Shown here piece by piece: positions 1 to 5,891 of a stretch of DNA of 64,000 nt. Made by a program: the position numbers and the translations under genes. The number at the start of each line of letters is the position of its first letter. Position 1 is the first letter of the stretch. This DNA comes from Rhizobacter sp. AJA081-3 (GTDB lineage Bacteria > Pseudomonadota > Gammaproteobacteria > Burkholderiales > Burkholderiaceae_C), in assembly GCF_017795745.1 (NCBI RefSeq), contig NZ_CP059067.1, positions 2,356,001-2,420,000 of the forward strand. The letters run 5' to 3'. The notes under the pieces are model-generated. The model did no database searches. It saw only the letters and a list, made by a program, of their open reading frames with translations, and was not told where the DNA came from.

Positions 1-528
1 GTCGCCCGGCTGCGCATCGGCATTTCGCTTGACGTGCTTCGGATGCACCAGCCCCAGCGCCACGAGGCCGTAGATCGCCTCGACGGAATCGATGGTGTGG
101 CCGCCGGCGATCGGGATGCCCGCGGCGCGGCACACCGAGGCGCCGCCTTCGAGGATGCGGCCGATGGTCTGCGTGGACAGCACGTTGATCGGCATGCCCA
201 CCAGCGCCAGCGCCATGATCGGGCGGCCGCCCATGGCGTAGACATCGCTGATGGCATTGGTGGCGGCGATGCGGCCGAAATCGTGCGGGTCGTCGACGAT
301 GGGCATGAAGAAGTCCGTCGTCGCGATCAGCGCCTGCTCGTCGTTGAGCTGGTAGACGGCCGCGTCGTCGGCGGTCTCGATGCCCACCAGCAGCTCTTTC
401 GGGATCGGCATCGCGGCCGTGCCCTTGAGGATCTCGGAGAGCAGGCCCGGGGCGATCTTGCAGCCGCAGCCGCCGCCGTGCGACAGCGAGGTCAGGCGGG
501 GTTCGGCGGGTTTTTCGGGTGCGTTCAT
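1..528 (-). CDS. selD: Selenide, water dikinase SelD/SenC (partial, 3' end off window)
   Basis: The gene runs off the left edge, so only about 176 N-terminal residues are visible. It matches selenide, water dikinase, which makes selenophosphate from selenide and ATP. Seen: a Gly-rich loop with catalytic Cys-Gly-Cys-Lys (residues 21-24), an Asp-Asp metal/ATP site (54-55) and the AGGHTID stretch (141-147). The active-site position is Cys; there is no in-frame TGA, so it is not a selenocysteine form. Its ATG overlaps the senB stop by 4 bp (ATGA), placing it as the SenC member of a selenoneine cluster that supplies selenophosphate to SenB. Whether it is also the genome's general SelD for selenoproteins or selenouridine tRNA cannot be seen here. 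Confidence 0.93.
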   Translation of the reverse strand, partial: MNAPEKPAEPRLTSLSHGGGCGCKIAPGLLSEILKGTAAMPIPKELLVGIETADDAAVYQLNDEQALIATTDFFMPIVDDPHDFGRIAATNAISDVYAMGGRPIMALALVGMPINVLSTQTIGRILEGGASVCRAAGIPIAGGHTIDSVEAIYGLVALGLVHPKHVKRNADAQPGD

Positions 529-1505
529 CGTCGGTCTCCGGGGTCGGTGCGTTCTGTCAGTTCGGCCAGCAGGCGGTGCAGCGTGTCGCGTTCGGCCTGC
601 GGCGAGAACAGCGGCGCGCGTTGCGCCACCTGGCGCGTCAAAGCCGGCAGCATATCGGCATCGTCGCGGGCGCGCTCCAGCAGGGTCGCCAGTGCTGCGT
701 CGTCGCCGGGCGAAAAGTAGCCGTCGTAGTCTTCTCCGAGCAGGCCCAGGTTGCCGTCGATGCGCGAGGCCAGCACCGGCGTGCCGCTGCGCACGGCCTC
801 GATGACCACGTGCGCCCCGCCTTCCATCCGGCTCGGGTGTACCAGCACATGGGCCGCCTGGATGCGCCGCCGGGTGGCCGCGTGCGGCAGCGCGCCGAGC
901 CAGCGGTAGTTGGACTGCGCTGCGGCGCGCGCCTGCGCCAGCGCGCCCAGCGCCGGGTCGAGCGCCGCGCCGACATGGTCGAGCAGGATGTCGCTGCGCG
1001 AGGCCAGCCGCTCGGCGGCACGCAGGTAGGAGCGCGGATCCTTCTCCTCGCGCAGGTGGCCCACCATCAGGGCGCGCAGATGGCGCATCGTTCGCGGCAG
1101 CACGCGACGCGCCGGGCAGGACTGCAGCACCACGCGGCAGCGCTCGCGCAAGTCCAGCGGCAGCCGTTCGCAACCCAGTTCATTGAGCACCACGAGGCGG
1201 TCGGCGCGCTGAAGCGAGCCTTGCGCGTCGGCATCGCTGTCGATGTCGCGGTACAGGTCGGTGCCGGTGAGCACCAGCACCAGCGGCCGCTGCGGGTGCG
1301 CGGCGCGCCAGGCTCTCACCGAAGCCGCCGAGCGGCGGGCGTGCAACGCGATCATCAACGCTTCGTCGCCGCCGCGCCACTGGCCCGTCAAGGCAACGTT
1401 GTAAGCTGGACGCAGCAAACGCGACCAACGCTGCGCGGTCTGCCAGTTGCCGTTGTTGGCGTCCGCCAGCGCCGGGGTCACGATCACGATGGATTCACGA
1501 TGCAC
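525..1505 (-). CDS. senB: Selenosugar synthase SenB (GT-B glycosyltransferase)
   Basis: A 326-residue GT-B glycosyltransferase of the kind paired with SenA and SelD. In the known pathway SenB uses UDP-sugar and selenophosphate to make a 1-seleno-sugar, the selenium donor for selenoneine. Seen: an N-terminal Rossmann start (IVIVTPA, 6-12), a GHLREEKDP nucleotide-sugar motif (149-157) and the C-terminal E-x7-E motif (EGGAHVVIEA, about 228-237) typical of GT4-type enzymes. The start is GTG at 1505; no later start keeps the first beta strand. That GTG lies within 6 bp of the divergent senA ATG. The stop overlaps senC by 4 bp. The SenB call rests on fold plus context; from fold alone it would be a generic GT4 glycosyltransferase. 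Confidence 0.9.
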   Translation of the reverse strand: MHRESIVIVTPALADANNGNWQTAQRWSRLLRPAYNVALTGQWRGGDEALMIALHARRSAASVRAWRAAHPQRPLVLVLTGTDLYRDIDSDADAQGSLQRADRLVVLNELGCERLPLDLRERCRVVLQSCPARRVLPRTMRHLRALMVGHLREEKDPRSYLRAAERLASRSDILLDHVGAALDPALGALAQARAAAQSNYRWLGALPHAATRRRIQAAHVLVHPSRMEGGAHVVIEAVRSGTPVLASRIDGNLGLLGEDYDGYFSPGDDAALATLLERARDDADMLPALTRQVAQRAPLFSPQAERDTLHRLLAELTERTDPGDRR

Positions 1506-2723
1506 GTCGCAAGCCTAACGCCAGTGGCACGTCTGGCCCGAGAGGGAAATGCCGATGTCGTCGCCCAGGCGCTGCAAGCCAGCCGGCGCGATACGCTGGC
1601 GACCTTCGCGTTGTACGAGCAGGCGCTGCCGGGCCTGGACGTGCCAAGACGGGGCGAGCTGAACCCGCCGCTGTGGGAACTGGGCCACATCGGCTGGTTC
1701 CAGGAGTACTGGCTGGTGCGCAATCCGCTCCGCGGCCACGGTGCGGCCGCCGACCCCGACGCACCGCGCGGCCGGCCGCTGCGCCCCGACGCCGATGCGC
1801 TCTACAACTCCAGCCGCGTGCCGCACGACTCACGCTGGTCGCTGCCGCTGCCCGATGCGCAGCGCACCCGCGACGAGCTGGTGCGTCAACTGGATTCGAC
1901 GCTGGCGCTGCTGGGCGGCGTCGACGCTGGCGACGACGATTCGCTGTATTTCTACCGCCTCGCCCTGCTGCACGAAGACATGCACCACGAGGCGGCGCTC
2001 TACATGGCGCAGTCGCTGGGCATCGCGATCGACGATCCGCGCTGGCAGGCCACCGCCCTGCCCGCCCCGCCGCCGCCGATCCGCCTGCCCGCCGGGCGCT
2101 GGAAGCTCGGCAGCGAAGCGCGGCGCGGCTTCGCCTTCGACAACGAGCTCGCCGCGCACGAGGTCGAGGTGTCGGCCAGCGCCATCGATGCGCAAGCCGT
2201 GCGCTGGGCCGAGTACCTGCCCTTCGTCGAGGCCGGCGGCTACGGTGACGCGCGCTGGTGGAACGATGCCGGCCAGCGCTGGCTTGCAGAGCACCACGTC
2301 GCCGCGCCGCGATACCTGCGCCAGATCGATGGCACCTGGCAGCACTGGCGACACGGCCGCTGGTTGGCGCTCGACCTCGCCGAAGCAGCCTGCCATCTCA
2401 CGCAGCACGAAGCGCTGGCCTGGTGCCGCTGGGCCGGGCGCCGCCTGCCCGGCGAGGCCGAATGGGAGCGCGCAGCCTTGACCCGGCCCGAGGCGTTCCG
2501 CTGGGGCGACGTGTGGGAATGGACGGCCAGCCCGTTCCAGCCCTTCCCCGGCTTTGCCGCACACCCCTACCGCGACTACTCTGCGCCCTGGTTCGACGGC
2601 AGGCCGGTGCTGCGCGGTGCCTCGTTCATGACGCAGCCGCGCTTGCGCCATCCGCGCTATCGCAACTACTTCCCCGCGTTCCGCAACGACGTGCCGGCCG
2701 GGTTCCGGACCTGTGCGCCGTGA
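1500..2723 (+). CDS. senA: Selenoneine synthase SenA (EgtB-like nonheme iron enzyme)
   Basis: An EgtB-family enzyme of 407 residues (from ATG 1500): an N-terminal DinB-like helical domain carrying the iron ligands (His63 in LGHIGW, and H158-x3-H162-x-E164) and a C-terminal FGE-sulfatase fold (about 197-405) ending GFRTCAP. SenA couples hercynine to the selenosugar from SenB using Fe and O2, forming the C-Se bond of selenoneine. Adjacency to senB and a selD homologue separates it from ergothioneine EgtB. The start is uncertain: ATG 1500 overlaps the senB start region and has no clear Shine-Dalgarno; GTG 1524 is the next option. A much longer upstream open frame is antisense to senB and was ignored. 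egtD follows convergently after 8 bp. Confidence 0.9.
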   Translation: MHVASLTPVARLAREGNADVVAQALQASRRDTLATFALYEQALPGLDVPRRGELNPPLWELGHIGWFQEYWLVRNPLRGHGAAADPDAPRGRPLRPDADALYNSSRVPHDSRWSLPLPDAQRTRDELVRQLDSTLALLGGVDAGDDDSLYFYRLALLHEDMHHEAALYMAQSLGIAIDDPRWQATALPAPPPPIRLPAGRWKLGSEARRGFAFDNELAAHEVEVSASAIDAQAVRWAEYLPFVEAGGYGDARWWNDAGQRWLAEHHVAAPRYLRQIDGTWQHWRHGRWLALDLAEAACHLTQHEALAWCRWAGRRLPGEAEWERAALTRPEAFRWGDVWEWTASPFQPFPGFAAHPYRDYSAPWFDGRPVLRGASFMTQPRLRHPRYRNYFPAFRNDVPAGFRTCAP

Positions 2724-2731
2724 TGCGCGAG

Positions 2732-3694
2732 TCAGCCCGCGGCGAGGAACACCGCGAACCAGCCCTGCGGATCGGTCCAGTGGCGCACGGCGCCGAAGCC
2801 GGCCTCGCGCAGCAAGTCCTCGAAATCCGCCACCGCCCACTTGGCCGAGTTCTCGGTGTGGATGCGCTCGCCGGCGGCGAACTCTCGGCGTCCGCCGTTC
2901 CAGTGCACTGTCACGGCGTGCCGCGCCTGCAGATGCATCTGGATGCGCGAATGCACCGTATCGAAGTGGGCGACGTGTTGCCAGTCACGCACGCGGAAAT
3001 CGGCACCGAGGAGGCGGTTGAGGTGATTCAGCAGGTTGAGGTTGAAGGCTGCGGTCACGCCGAGTTCGTCATCGTAGGCGGCCTCCAGCGTGGCCACCGG
3101 CTTGACCAGATCGACGCCGATCAGCAAGGCGCCGCCAGCCGCCGTGGCCCGCGCGTCGCGCAGCAAGCGCAGTGCTTGCGCAGGCGAGAAATTGCCGATC
3201 GAGGAGCCGGGATAGAACACGAGGCCGCGGCCGTCGACCAGCCGTTCGGGCAGTTGCAGTTGCGCCGAGAAGTCCAGGCCCACGCCGACCATCTGCATCG
3301 CCGGGTGCTCGCGCTGCAGGTGCTGAAGCGAGTCGCGCAGGAAATCCACCGAGATGTCGACCGCCACGTAACGCCGCGGCTCCAGGCGGCCGAACAGGCG
3401 TGCCGCCTTGGCGCAGTTGCCTGCACCCAGGTCGACCATCACCGGGCCGGCGCCTGTGGCGTCGCGCGCGGCCTCGGCCATCGCCGCGCCGTGCACCGCG
3501 AAGATCTCGGCCTCGGTGCGGGTCGGGTAGTACTCCTGCAGCTCGGTGATGGCGTCGAACAGCCGCGAGCCCAGCGGGTCGTAGAAGAACTTCGGCGACA
3601 CGTGGGCCTGCGCCGCGAGCAGGCCGGCAGCCGCCTCGTCGGCCATCGCACGGTCGTCGATCCGGTGAAGCTGGATGAAAGTCGGGGTCTGCAT
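2732..3694 (-). CDS. egtD: L-histidine N(alpha)-methyltransferase EgtD
   Basis: A 320-residue EgtD-type methyltransferase that trimethylates histidine with SAM to give hercynine (histidine betaine), the acceptor used by SenA or EgtB. Seen: the family N-terminal block FFYDPLGSRLFDAI followed by EYYPTRTE (36-61), the SAM-binding DLGAGN (88-93), and the FYPGSSIGNF block shared by EgtD proteins. It is convergent with senA (8 bp gap) and divergent from the TVP38-like gene at 3817. No egtA, egtC or egtE is nearby, so the local product is more likely selenoneine than mycobacterial-type ergothioneine; some ergothioneine could still form if SenA or a distant enzyme accepts sulfur donors. Confidence 0.95.
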   Translation of the reverse strand: MQTPTFIQLHRIDDRAMADEAAAGLLAAQAHVSPKFFYDPLGSRLFDAITELQEYYPTRTEAEIFAVHGAAMAEAARDATGAGPVMVDLGAGNCAKAARLFGRLEPRRYVAVDISVDFLRDSLQHLQREHPAMQMVGVGLDFSAQLQLPERLVDGRGLVFYPGSSIGNFSPAQALRLLRDARATAAGGALLIGVDLVKPVATLEAAYDDELGVTAAFNLNLLNHLNRLLGADFRVRDWQHVAHFDTVHSRIQMHLQARHAVTVHWNGGRREFAAGERIHTENSAKWAVADFEDLLREAGFGAVRHWTDPQGWFAVFLAAG

Positions 3695-3816
3695 CGTAGA
3701 CGGGGGGTGCCGGGCCCCTGCGGCCCTCGGTCCGACTCTAGCAGCGCAACGCGGATACAGTGCCGGGGCCGAACCCCGACCCCTCCTTCAACTGACCCAT
3801 CGACAATCACGCCTTG

Positions 3817-4515
3817 ATGCGCTGGTCCACCACCCACTCGTTGTTTGCCGTGGTCGTGCTCGCGCTGGGGCTTGCCGTGGCCGGCTTGCTCACCGGCAGC
3901 GTGCCTGATCTCACGCAGCGCGAATGGTGGCTTGACCAGCATGCGCAGGGGCTGGCCTGGCAGGGCGAGTCGCCGTGGCTGTTCGCGATCGGCTTCGTGG
4001 CACTGTTCACCGTGCTGGCGGCCTTCACCTTGCCCGGCTGCGCACCGCTGTGCCTGTTCGCCGGCAGCTGCTACGGCGCCGTGGGCGGCACGCTGATCGT
4101 CGGCGCCGCGTCCACGCTGGGAGCGCTGCTGTCCTTTCTCACGGCGAGGCACCTGGCACGCGATCGTGTGGAGCGACGCTTCGGCCATCGGCTGCGCGTG
4201 CTCGACCTGGCAGTCTCCCGCCACGGCTGGCCGTGGGTGTTCTGGCTGCGCCTGGTTCCTGTCGTGCCCTACCCGCTGCTCAACCCTCTGCTCGGCCTGA
4301 GCCGGCTGTCGATGCGCGGTTTCCTGTGGCCCAGCTTCGCCGGGCTGACGATCGGCAGCGTGCCCTATGTGTGGGCCGGCCTCAGCCTGGTGGGCACACT
4401 GCAGACCGGTTCGCCCGACTGGGCCACGCTGGCCGGCGCGGCCACGCTGATGCTCGCCATCACGCTGACCGGCCGGCACTGGATGCAGCGCCGCGGCGCG
4501 GGGGCAGGCGGATGA
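3817..4515 (+). CDS. TVP38/TMEM64 (VTT domain) membrane protein
   Basis: A 232-residue polytopic membrane protein with the VTT/SNARE-associated core: a hydrophobic N-terminal helix (6-25), the FTLPGCAPLCLFAGSCYG block (re-entrant loop region, about 69-88), the GALLSFLTARHLARDRV segment and the LRLVPVVPYPLLNPLLGLS block. The family is related to DedA and is thought to handle lipid or small-ion transport; the substrate is unknown. Start ATG at 3817, with TTG three bases upstream as an alternative. The stop overlaps the ATG of the ATP-grasp gene (ATGA), implying co-expression. It is divergent from egtD over about 120 bp. Confidence 0.82.
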   Translation: MRWSTTHSLFAVVVLALGLAVAGLLTGSVPDLTQREWWLDQHAQGLAWQGESPWLFAIGFVALFTVLAAFTLPGCAPLCLFAGSCYGAVGGTLIVGAASTLGALLSFLTARHLARDRVERRFGHRLRVLDLAVSRHGWPWVFWLRLVPVVPYPLLNPLLGLSRLSMRGFLWPSFAGLTIGSVPYVWAGLSLVGTLQTGSPDWATLAGAATLMLAITLTGRHWMQRRGAGAGG

Positions 4516-5891
4516 CGCCGGTGCCGCGTGTCGGCTGGCTGTTCGCCTACGACTGGGATCGCCTCGCGCTGGAGGCGATCGAGCGCGACGCTGGCCTGGC
4601 GCGATTCGACCATGCCGGCTTCGACCTGTTTTCGTTCCCGAGCAATGCCGCGCTGGTCGGCTTCGACCTCGAACGCTTTGCAGAAAGGCAGGCCGCCCGT
4701 GGCCGGCGAATGGGCTGGCAGGGCGTGCTCTCTCACCACGAGCAGTTCGGCGCATTGGCCGCCGCGCTGGTCGCCGAGCGGCTGGGGCTGCCTGGCGCCA
4801 CACCCGAGTCGGTGATGGCGGCGCAGCACAAGCTGCACGCACGACAGGTGTTGCAGAAGGTGGCCCCCGAGGCCAACGTGGCCAGCCGGGAACTGCCCAC
4901 GCAGTACGGCGAGCCGATTCCCGAGGGCCTGCCGTACCCCAGCTTCGTCAAGCCGGTGAAGGCAGCGTTCTCGGTGCTCGCGCGCCGCGTCGACAGCCGC
5001 GCCGAACTGCAGGCGCACACCCGCTTCGGCCGACGCGAGCTGTGGGTGATCCGGCGCCTCGTGGAGCCCTTCGAACGCGTGTGCAGGGCGCGGCTGCCGC
5101 AGGCCGGCAGCGCACATCGCATGTTGCTGGAGGAGCCGGCGCCGGCACACGCCTCGCAGTACAACCTCGACGGCTGGGTGCAGGACGGCCAGGTGCATGC
5201 GCTGGGCGTGGTCGACGCCATCATGTACCCAGGCACCCAGGCCTTCATGCGCTGGGAACACCCGAGCCGCGCGAGCGATGCCGTGCAGAAGCGCGCGCTG
5301 GACGTGGCGCGCCGCTTCCTCGGCGCCATCGGCTACCGGCATGGCTTCTTCAACCTCGAGTTCTTCCACGACGCGGCCAGCGACCGGCTCACCGTGATCG
5401 AGTGCAACCCGCGGCTGGCCTCGCAGTTCGCCGACCTGTACCGGCGCGTGCAGGGCGTGGATGCGCACGCCATGGCGGTGGCGCTGGCGAGGGGCGAAGC
5501 GCCCGAGCTCGTACCGCGCTGCGAGCCGACGGCCGGCGTGGCGGCAAGCCTGGTGTACCGGACCTTCGACCCGCTGCTTGCATCGCCGCCGCAGCCCGAC
5601 GCGGCGGCCCGCTCGCGCTTCGCCGCGCAGCATCCGCAGGGCCTGCTGTTCGGCTTCCCCAAGCAGGGCCATTCGCTGGCACGCGACTTCAAGTGGACCG
5701 GCAGCCACCGCTACGCCATCGTGCACCTGGGCGCGGCCGACCGCGACGAGCTGCACCACCAGGCCGAGCGCGCCAGCGCGCTGTTCGGCTGGCCCGCCCC
5801 CTACTTCGACCACCCCGGCGAACACGCACCGGCAGCCGCCCCGGCCGCCGACTGGCGCAACCGATTCACCCCCCCTCTCGGAGCCTCCTGA
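4512..5891 (+). CDS. ATP-grasp domain protein of unknown substrate
   Basis: A 459-residue soluble protein with an ATP-grasp fold: the central SFVKPVKAAFSVLARRV strand with a Lys (about residues 141-159) and the metal-binding V-I-E-C-N-P-R motif (about 294-300). ATP-grasp enzymes ligate a carboxylate to an amine or thiol through an acyl-phosphate. The N-terminal ~120 residues do not identify a subfamily. It starts by 4-bp overlap inside the TVP38-like gene and is followed 1 bp later by a YHS lipoprotein, so it lies in a four-gene run. The frame stays open far upstream of 4512, but that part is antisense-like shadow sequence. Substrate and pathway are not known to me. Confidence 0.75.
   Translation: MTPVPRVGWLFAYDWDRLALEAIERDAGLARFDHAGFDLFSFPSNAALVGFDLERFAERQAARGRRMGWQGVLSHHEQFGALAAALVAERLGLPGATPESVMAAQHKLHARQVLQKVAPEANVASRELPTQYGEPIPEGLPYPSFVKPVKAAFSVLARRVDSRAELQAHTRFGRRELWVIRRLVEPFERVCRARLPQAGSAHRMLLEEPAPAHASQYNLDGWVQDGQVHALGVVDAIMYPGTQAFMRWEHPSRASDAVQKRALDVARRFLGAIGYRHGFFNLEFFHDAASDRLTVIECNPRLASQFADLYRRVQGVDAHAMAVALARGEAPELVPRCEPTAGVAASLVYRTFDPLLASPPQPDAAARSRFAAQHPQGLLFGFPKQGHSLARDFKWTGSHRYAIVHLGAADRDELHHQAERASALFGWPAPYFDHPGEHAPAAAPAADWRNRFTPPLGAS

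Follow-up and report, generated by a model that had tools for sequence, protein, structure and literature searches.

The four genes at positions 1–3694 of the window, by which we mean the whole 64,000-nucleotide stretch of the Rhizobacter sp. AJA081-3 genome that was analyzed (G000:C1:2356001-2420000, in a host genome of one 5.40-Mb contig), very probably make up a selenoneine biosynthesis locus. The gene assignments rest on sequence, and it is from them that we infer selenoneine production in Rhizobacter sp. AJA081-3. The locus is a sound selenoneine set of a known kind that is ordinary in its family, and the surprise is located elsewhere in the genome, in the form of a second SenA-like gene, here termed senA2. 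The first-pass annotation of this DNA, which had named selenoneine as the product, points the right way but claims too much exclusivity.

Layout of the locus

The locus comprises senC, only the first part of which falls inside the window, together with senB, senA and egtD, and all of the reading frames are intact (Table 1). The full senC gene encodes 354 amino acids (L007:7467-8528) and its end falls 536 bases before the window. The senB and senC genes overlap by 4 bp and are divergent to senA, which in turn converges with egtD across a gap of 8 bp. Because senBC are on the minus strand, senA on the plus strand and egtD on the minus strand, the sen genes of the window do not form one operon, and the single-operon reading of the locus is ruled out by the gene strands, which give three transcription units in a compact set. 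An alternative start of senA is possible at GTG1524, and if this is the true start then 18 bp separate it from that of senB. The word ATGCAC is present at the senA/senB start point in 8 of 69 loci, with that of the window counted. The same four-gene order is found in a congener genome (L061), where the identities are 88% for SenA, 88% for SenB, 96% for SenC and 93% for EgtD, and comparison of the window genome with a sister genome gave dN/dS values of 0.235 for senA, 0.263 for senB, 0.102 for senC and 0.123 for egtD.

Table 1. Features of the selenoneine locus (window positions) and the second SenA-like gene (genome positions).
Feature	Position	Strand	Details
senC/selD, selenide water dikinase (selenophosphate synthetase)	528->1	minus	first 176 of 354 codons inside window; NF002098 531 bits, TIGR00476 426 bits
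senB, selenosugar synthase (Se-glycosyltransferase, GT-B)	525-1505	minus	326 aa; GTG start; TIGR04348 448 bits
senA, non-haem iron selenoneine synthase	1500-2723	plus	407 aa from ATG1500; NF041186 508 bits
egtD, L-histidine N-alpha-methyltransferase (hercynine synthesis)	2732-3694	minus	320 aa; TIGR03438 356 bits
head-to-head senB/senA start region	1500-1524		ATGCAC = senA ATG + opposite-strand senB GTG
senA2	G000:C1:3359422-3360669 (L148, L178)		416 aa; NF041186 478 bits (cut-off 420)

In several loci (L050, L055, L062, L064, L073 and others) about 20 bp separate the starts of senA and senB, and the intervening sequence contains a TTTATAGC-like stretch. A set of TATA-like words, which was picked after the sequences were seen and to which the window's own copy gives no match, occurs in 22 of 69 loci, compared to 3.8 in shuffled sequences (SD 1.9, maximum 9). 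The start region is possibly a single two-way −10 element that gives rise to leaderless transcripts. On the other side of the locus, window positions 3814–5891, divergent to egtD, encode a membrane protein with a VTT domain as well as a protein of ATP-grasp-like appearance, the latter having no Pfam match at E ≤ 0.001. Homologues of the ATP-grasp-like protein are found near 8 of 101 sen loci, including that of the window, and near 8 of 80 in the titled genome collection.

Identity of the four proteins

The first-pass annotation had recognized a selD homologue, a glycosyltransferase, an EgtB-like enzyme and an EgtD methyltransferase, and each of these four proteins scores above the cut-off of its curated NCBIfam model (299 bits for SelD, NF002098; 300 for SenB, TIGR04348; 420 for SenA, NF041186; and 291 for EgtD, TIGR03438). 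The EgtB-like protein was read as SenA rather than EgtB, and on this the model scores, the tree and the active-site residues all agree, such that its predicted identity as SenA is strong. Its best solved relatives are the SenA chains 8ryz and 8k5i (430 bits), the second of which we take to be V. paradoxus SenA, and OvsA and EgtB follow at 134 and 133 bits, respectively. The best solved relatives of the window SenB are PDB entries 8jjq and 8fbx (354 bits); its K155 lines up with Lys158 of chain 8jjq, and the EGGAHV motif is present. PDB entry 8fbx is V. paradoxus SenB (PMC10702425), and K158 and EGGAHV are the residues of SenB that are stressed in PMC10891094. The window EgtD matches PF10017 at 334 bits and the EgtD structure 4pim at 182 bits. 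In the titled genome collection the nearest SenB matches are from Roseateles saccharophilus (76%) and other Burkholderiales, several of them titled Rubrivivax.

The tree that was constructed contains 88 rows (a quick IQ-TREE run with SH-aLRT only, in which the order of the SenA subgroups is weakly supported) and sets five EgtBs apart at 100% support, so that the grouping with EgtB that the first-pass annotation had named as evidence against SenA is absent. The window SenA falls within one starred set, made up of 11 SenAs from sen loci, and the solved SenA 8k5i belongs to a different starred set within the same family. The active site was compared with that of chain 4x8b, which we take to be the EgtB of M. 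thermoresistibile, with its chain numbering presumably one higher than that used for Tyr377. In this alignment H63, H158, H162 and Y357 of the window SenA fall on chain positions 52, 135, 139 and 378. The iron of MthEgtB is held by three histidines and Tyr377 is critical, as described in PMC10903977. In the window SenA, H63, H158 and H162 are taken to be the three-His iron site, and Y357 the equivalent of Tyr377.

Proposed pathway and alternative explanations

In the proposed pathway EgtD would trimethylate histidine to give hercynine, SenC would generate selenophosphate from selenide and ATP, and SenB would transfer the selenium of selenophosphate onto a UDP-sugar to yield a selenosugar. SenA, using iron and oxygen, would then couple the selenosugar to hercynine, and the resulting selenoxide would break down and be reduced to selenoneine. 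The role of EgtD as the source of hercynine, which had been suggested from the sequence, is borne out by its model score and by the co-occurrence of SenA-like genes and EgtD in SenB-positive genomes (see below). Among known systems the comparison is with the sen cluster (senABC) of Variovorax paradoxus DSM 30034, reportedly described by Kayrouz et al. in 2022 and covered in PMC9814287, PMC10702425, PMC10891094 and PMC10903977; the best solved relatives of the window proteins include its SenB (8fbx) and what we take to be its SenA (8k5i). The likeness extends to SenA, SenB and SenC by curated model and to the catalytic residues, and the SenA, SenB and SenC chemistry is that reported for the V. 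paradoxus enzymes (PMC9814287, PMC10702425, PMC10903977). In the window locus egtD is positioned next to senA, and the genome of the window has a single SelD that is shared with selenocysteine and selenouridine synthesis. In the case of the EgtB/EgtD pathway of ergothioneine synthesis, the EgtD enzyme family is the same and an EgtB is encoded elsewhere in the window genome, but the window locus has no egtB and its SenA is under the cut-off of the EgtB model.

A search of the genome for a second selD found none over the cut-off, the window senC being the only one above it and two further matches being weak (51 bits each). SenB is found once over the cut-off, and EgtD is present in a single copy, the egtD of the window. 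An EgtB is encoded outside the window (565 bits, cut-off 360), and there is no egtD match within 14 kb around its gene (L311). The genome also encodes SelA (577 bits, cut-off 268), with genes for SelB (459 bits, cut-off 242) and formate dehydrogenase adjoining selA, as well as SelU (352 bits, cut-off 220), and no selenate-binding protein was found above the cut-off of TIGR04553 in the genome (106 bits, cut-off 250). With one SelD, SelA and SelB, SelU and the sen genes, one selenophosphate supply therefore feeds three selenium uses, where SenC would be shared with the selenocysteine and selenouridine systems. Hence the first-pass view of a self-contained pathway, in the sense of a dedicated one, is not supported, as the sole SelD over the cut-off must also serve SelA and SelU, and because SelA, SelB and SelU are in the same genome, selD by itself is no pointer to selenoneine. 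Likewise, hercynine from the single EgtD would also be available to the separately encoded EgtB for conversion to ergothioneine, and it can therefore go to two products. Of the proposal that the product is selenoneine rather than ergothioneine, the prediction of selenoneine stands and the exclusivity is unsupported, since EgtB is encoded elsewhere and EgtD is single. The presence of one SelD and one EgtD together with the genes for selenocysteine, selenouridine, selenoneine and ergothioneine makes this organism a natural setting for questions of how selenium and hercynine are shared.

It is scarcely credible that the EgtB-like protein is an EgtB, with the locus producing ergothioneine and selD as a chance neighbor. 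SenA does belong to the EgtB superfamily and the window protein matches the EgtB model TIGR03440 at 220 bits, but this is below the cut-off of 360 whereas the SenA cut-off is exceeded, the protein is apart from the EgtBs in the tree at 100%, a protein that does exceed the EgtB cut-off (565 bits) is encoded elsewhere, and senA adjoins senB in 56 of 86 family loci, with the senA2 type doing so in 5 more. The model scores and the tree rule out an EgtB identity for the window SenA. That the locus makes some other selenium compound, for example ovoselenol via an OvsA-type enzyme, is very unlikely. The OvsA selenoxide synthase (PDB 8u41, 8u42, 8ux5) is in the same superfamily as the window SenA by sequence and is related to it at 134 bits, but the match to the SenA chains is far higher (430 bits) and the adjoining methyltransferase is EgtD by curated model; the OvsA type is ruled out on score.

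A further explanation is compatible with selenoneine biosynthesis at the locus, namely that the main use of EgtD is in ergothioneine synthesis via the separate EgtB and that the sen genes represent a selenium-conditional branch, and to this we give slightly less than an even chance. It fits with the single EgtD of the genome, with the EgtB encoded elsewhere and with the presence of EgtD in 105 of 188 SenB-negative sample genomes, but the sole egtD adjoins senA and the 14 kb around egtB (L311) contain no egtD match.

A second SenA-like protein outside the window

The senA2 gene turned up during the search for an EgtB elsewhere in the genome. The best solved relative of its product is SenA (351 bits), and it scores above the cut-off of the SenA model, but the three-His iron site is incomplete and the catalytic Tyr is replaced: at the positions of H162, Y357, S104 and N389 of the window SenA it has R, Q, P and H, the second His of HxxxH having been replaced by Arg. 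It is 98.6% identical to its counterpart in the sister genome with a dN/dS of 0.039, which is tighter than for senA, senB, senC and egtD, and its dN/dS against two further congeners is 0.28 and 0.39, so the constraint looks looser over a longer time. A decaying pseudogene is disfavored by the value of 0.039 against the sister genome, and a spare SenA by the lost residues. By eye, alkB-like and tungstate-transporter-like genes are located near senA2.

The SenA2 proteins form one clade inside the SenA family (47 tree rows, 100% support), and the 7 of the 47 rows that adjoin senB all keep the three histidines. Forty SenA2 copies located away from senB were first taken from the upper part of a longer match list, and of these 25 are without one or more of the iron histidines and 15 keep all three. 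Loss of the iron ligands requires 8 changes in the tree, at least 6 of which are forced by starred branches. The cut-off of NF041186 is passed by 8 of 10 other ligand-altered copies that were scanned, and because this makes 9 of 11 altered copies with senA2 that pass a 'selenoneine synthase' model, counts of selenoneine producers from SenA alone would be too high. As to what SenA2 might do, weak hints come from selD, which adjoins SenA2 in 6 of 40 loci, all of them SenB-negative, and from EgtD, which in SenB-negative genomes is present in 43 of 54 with a SenA-like gene versus 62 of 134 with neither (p = 4e-5, relatedness ignored). The altered SenA2 would be either a pseudoenzyme or an enzyme whose chemistry has changed. 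We think it fairly probable that SenA2 represents a widespread clade that derives from SenA and whose catalytic machinery (an iron His, the Tyr377 equivalent, Ser104 and Asn389) was dismantled several times independently while the protein was retained in a non-catalytic or different role, perhaps in binding or sensing hercynine or a product, a level of confidence that was set before the fresh test of 20 copies described below, which went in its favor.

Residues that separate SenA from its look-alikes

The signature H63-S104-H158-H162-Y357-N389 (window SenA numbering) is intact in all 72 of the SenA-like frames longer than 300 residues in sen regions, and all 72 keep the three histidines (74 frames were found, and the truncated L058 and L059 were dropped). 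All 71 of the sen-locus proteins compared (64 SenA and 7 SenA2) retain Ser104 and Tyr357, as do 5 of 15 solo copies with three histidines and none of 25 that have lost a ligand; the corresponding numbers for Asn389 are 71 of 71, 11 of 15 and 2 of 25. The solo copies were classed by genome as SenB-positive without senA within 500 bp of senB, SenB-positive with it, and SenB-negative. In the first set of solo copies the signature is intact in 7/9, 0/13 and 0/20 of these classes, respectively, where the 13 are 11 tabulated copies together with those of G090 and G275 (senA is present in their sen loci, L303 and L304), and where the 9 include L170 and L175, which were added by hand because the sen loci of their genomes were known to lack senA and without which the first fraction is 5/7. 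When only solo copies with three histidines are considered, which were not used in picking the other signature positions, it is intact in 7 of 7 from SenB-positive genomes without senA by senB, as opposed to 0 of 10 from the other genomes (p = 5e-5, relatedness ignored).

A fresh test used 20 further copies whose classes were assigned ahead of any look at their residues, and the signature was intact in 4/6, 0/8 and 0/6, respectively (p about 0.003 from the hypergeometric formula by hand, relatedness ignored). Of the four intact fresh copies, two (G168 and G246) are closer to SenA than they are to SenA2. With the inclusion of L173, which was left out of the first set and added later, is not intact and comes from a genome with a locus senA, the totals are 11/15, 0/22 and 0/26, or 0/48 outside the first class (63 copies, 20 of them fresh). 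The exceptions among SenB-positive genomes with no adjacent senA are G202, G205, G110 and G094, and a second SenA-like match is present in the last three but not in G202. An intact catalytic signature is confined almost entirely to copies that are the candidate SenA in a genome with SenB. The signature tells likely selenoneine synthases from their look-alikes, which the current model mostly fails to do, and these look-alikes make up a putative pseudoenzyme family.

Distribution of the sen genes and egtD in the family

The family sample consisted of 299 genomes, of which 111 contain SenB at E ≤ 1e-60 and 110 above the cut-off. Gene order was counted in 101 sen loci, with 10 of the 111 SenB-positive genomes left out, and in 86 of these loci the sequence continues for 5 kb or more on the side of senA. 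Among these 86, egtD is no further than 3 kb from senB in 37, and senA is also there in 25. In the titled genome collection 62 of 80 loci are long enough by the same measure, and 30 of these 62 have egtD within 3 kb, 22 of them together with senA. The combination of sen genes with egtD is an ordinary layout in the family. In the literature searched, to which the 2022 Nature and 2024 Nature Chemistry papers did not belong, no statement on egtD adjoining sen genes was met, which is no proof of absence. Among SenB-positive genomes, EgtD is present in 95 of the 97 that carry a SenA-like gene versus 3 of the 14 that do not (Fisher p = 6e-11, relatedness ignored), where 16 genomes with EgtB-level matches were not classed as SenA-like, a line that was drawn by the analyst.

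Eleven of the 111 SenB-positive genomes, some of them on short contigs, have neither a SenA-like gene nor EgtD (loci L147, L106, L111, L104, L127, L300, L301, L092, L129, L302 and L115), and perhaps such SenB-only genomes use the selenosugar for something else. Inspection of the regions around these 11 loci revealed no extra gene that stood out as common to them. A PhnD-like ABC transporter, as judged by eye, adjoins senB in L092, L147, L300 and L054, and homologues of parts of this transporter are found in the regions of about 50–56 other sen loci. In 21 of the 101 sen loci (L115, L127 and 19 others) the SelD near senB is less than 40% identical to SenC, and in L115 and L127 it lies within an 803-residue frame whose N-terminus appears by eye to be oxidoreductase-like.
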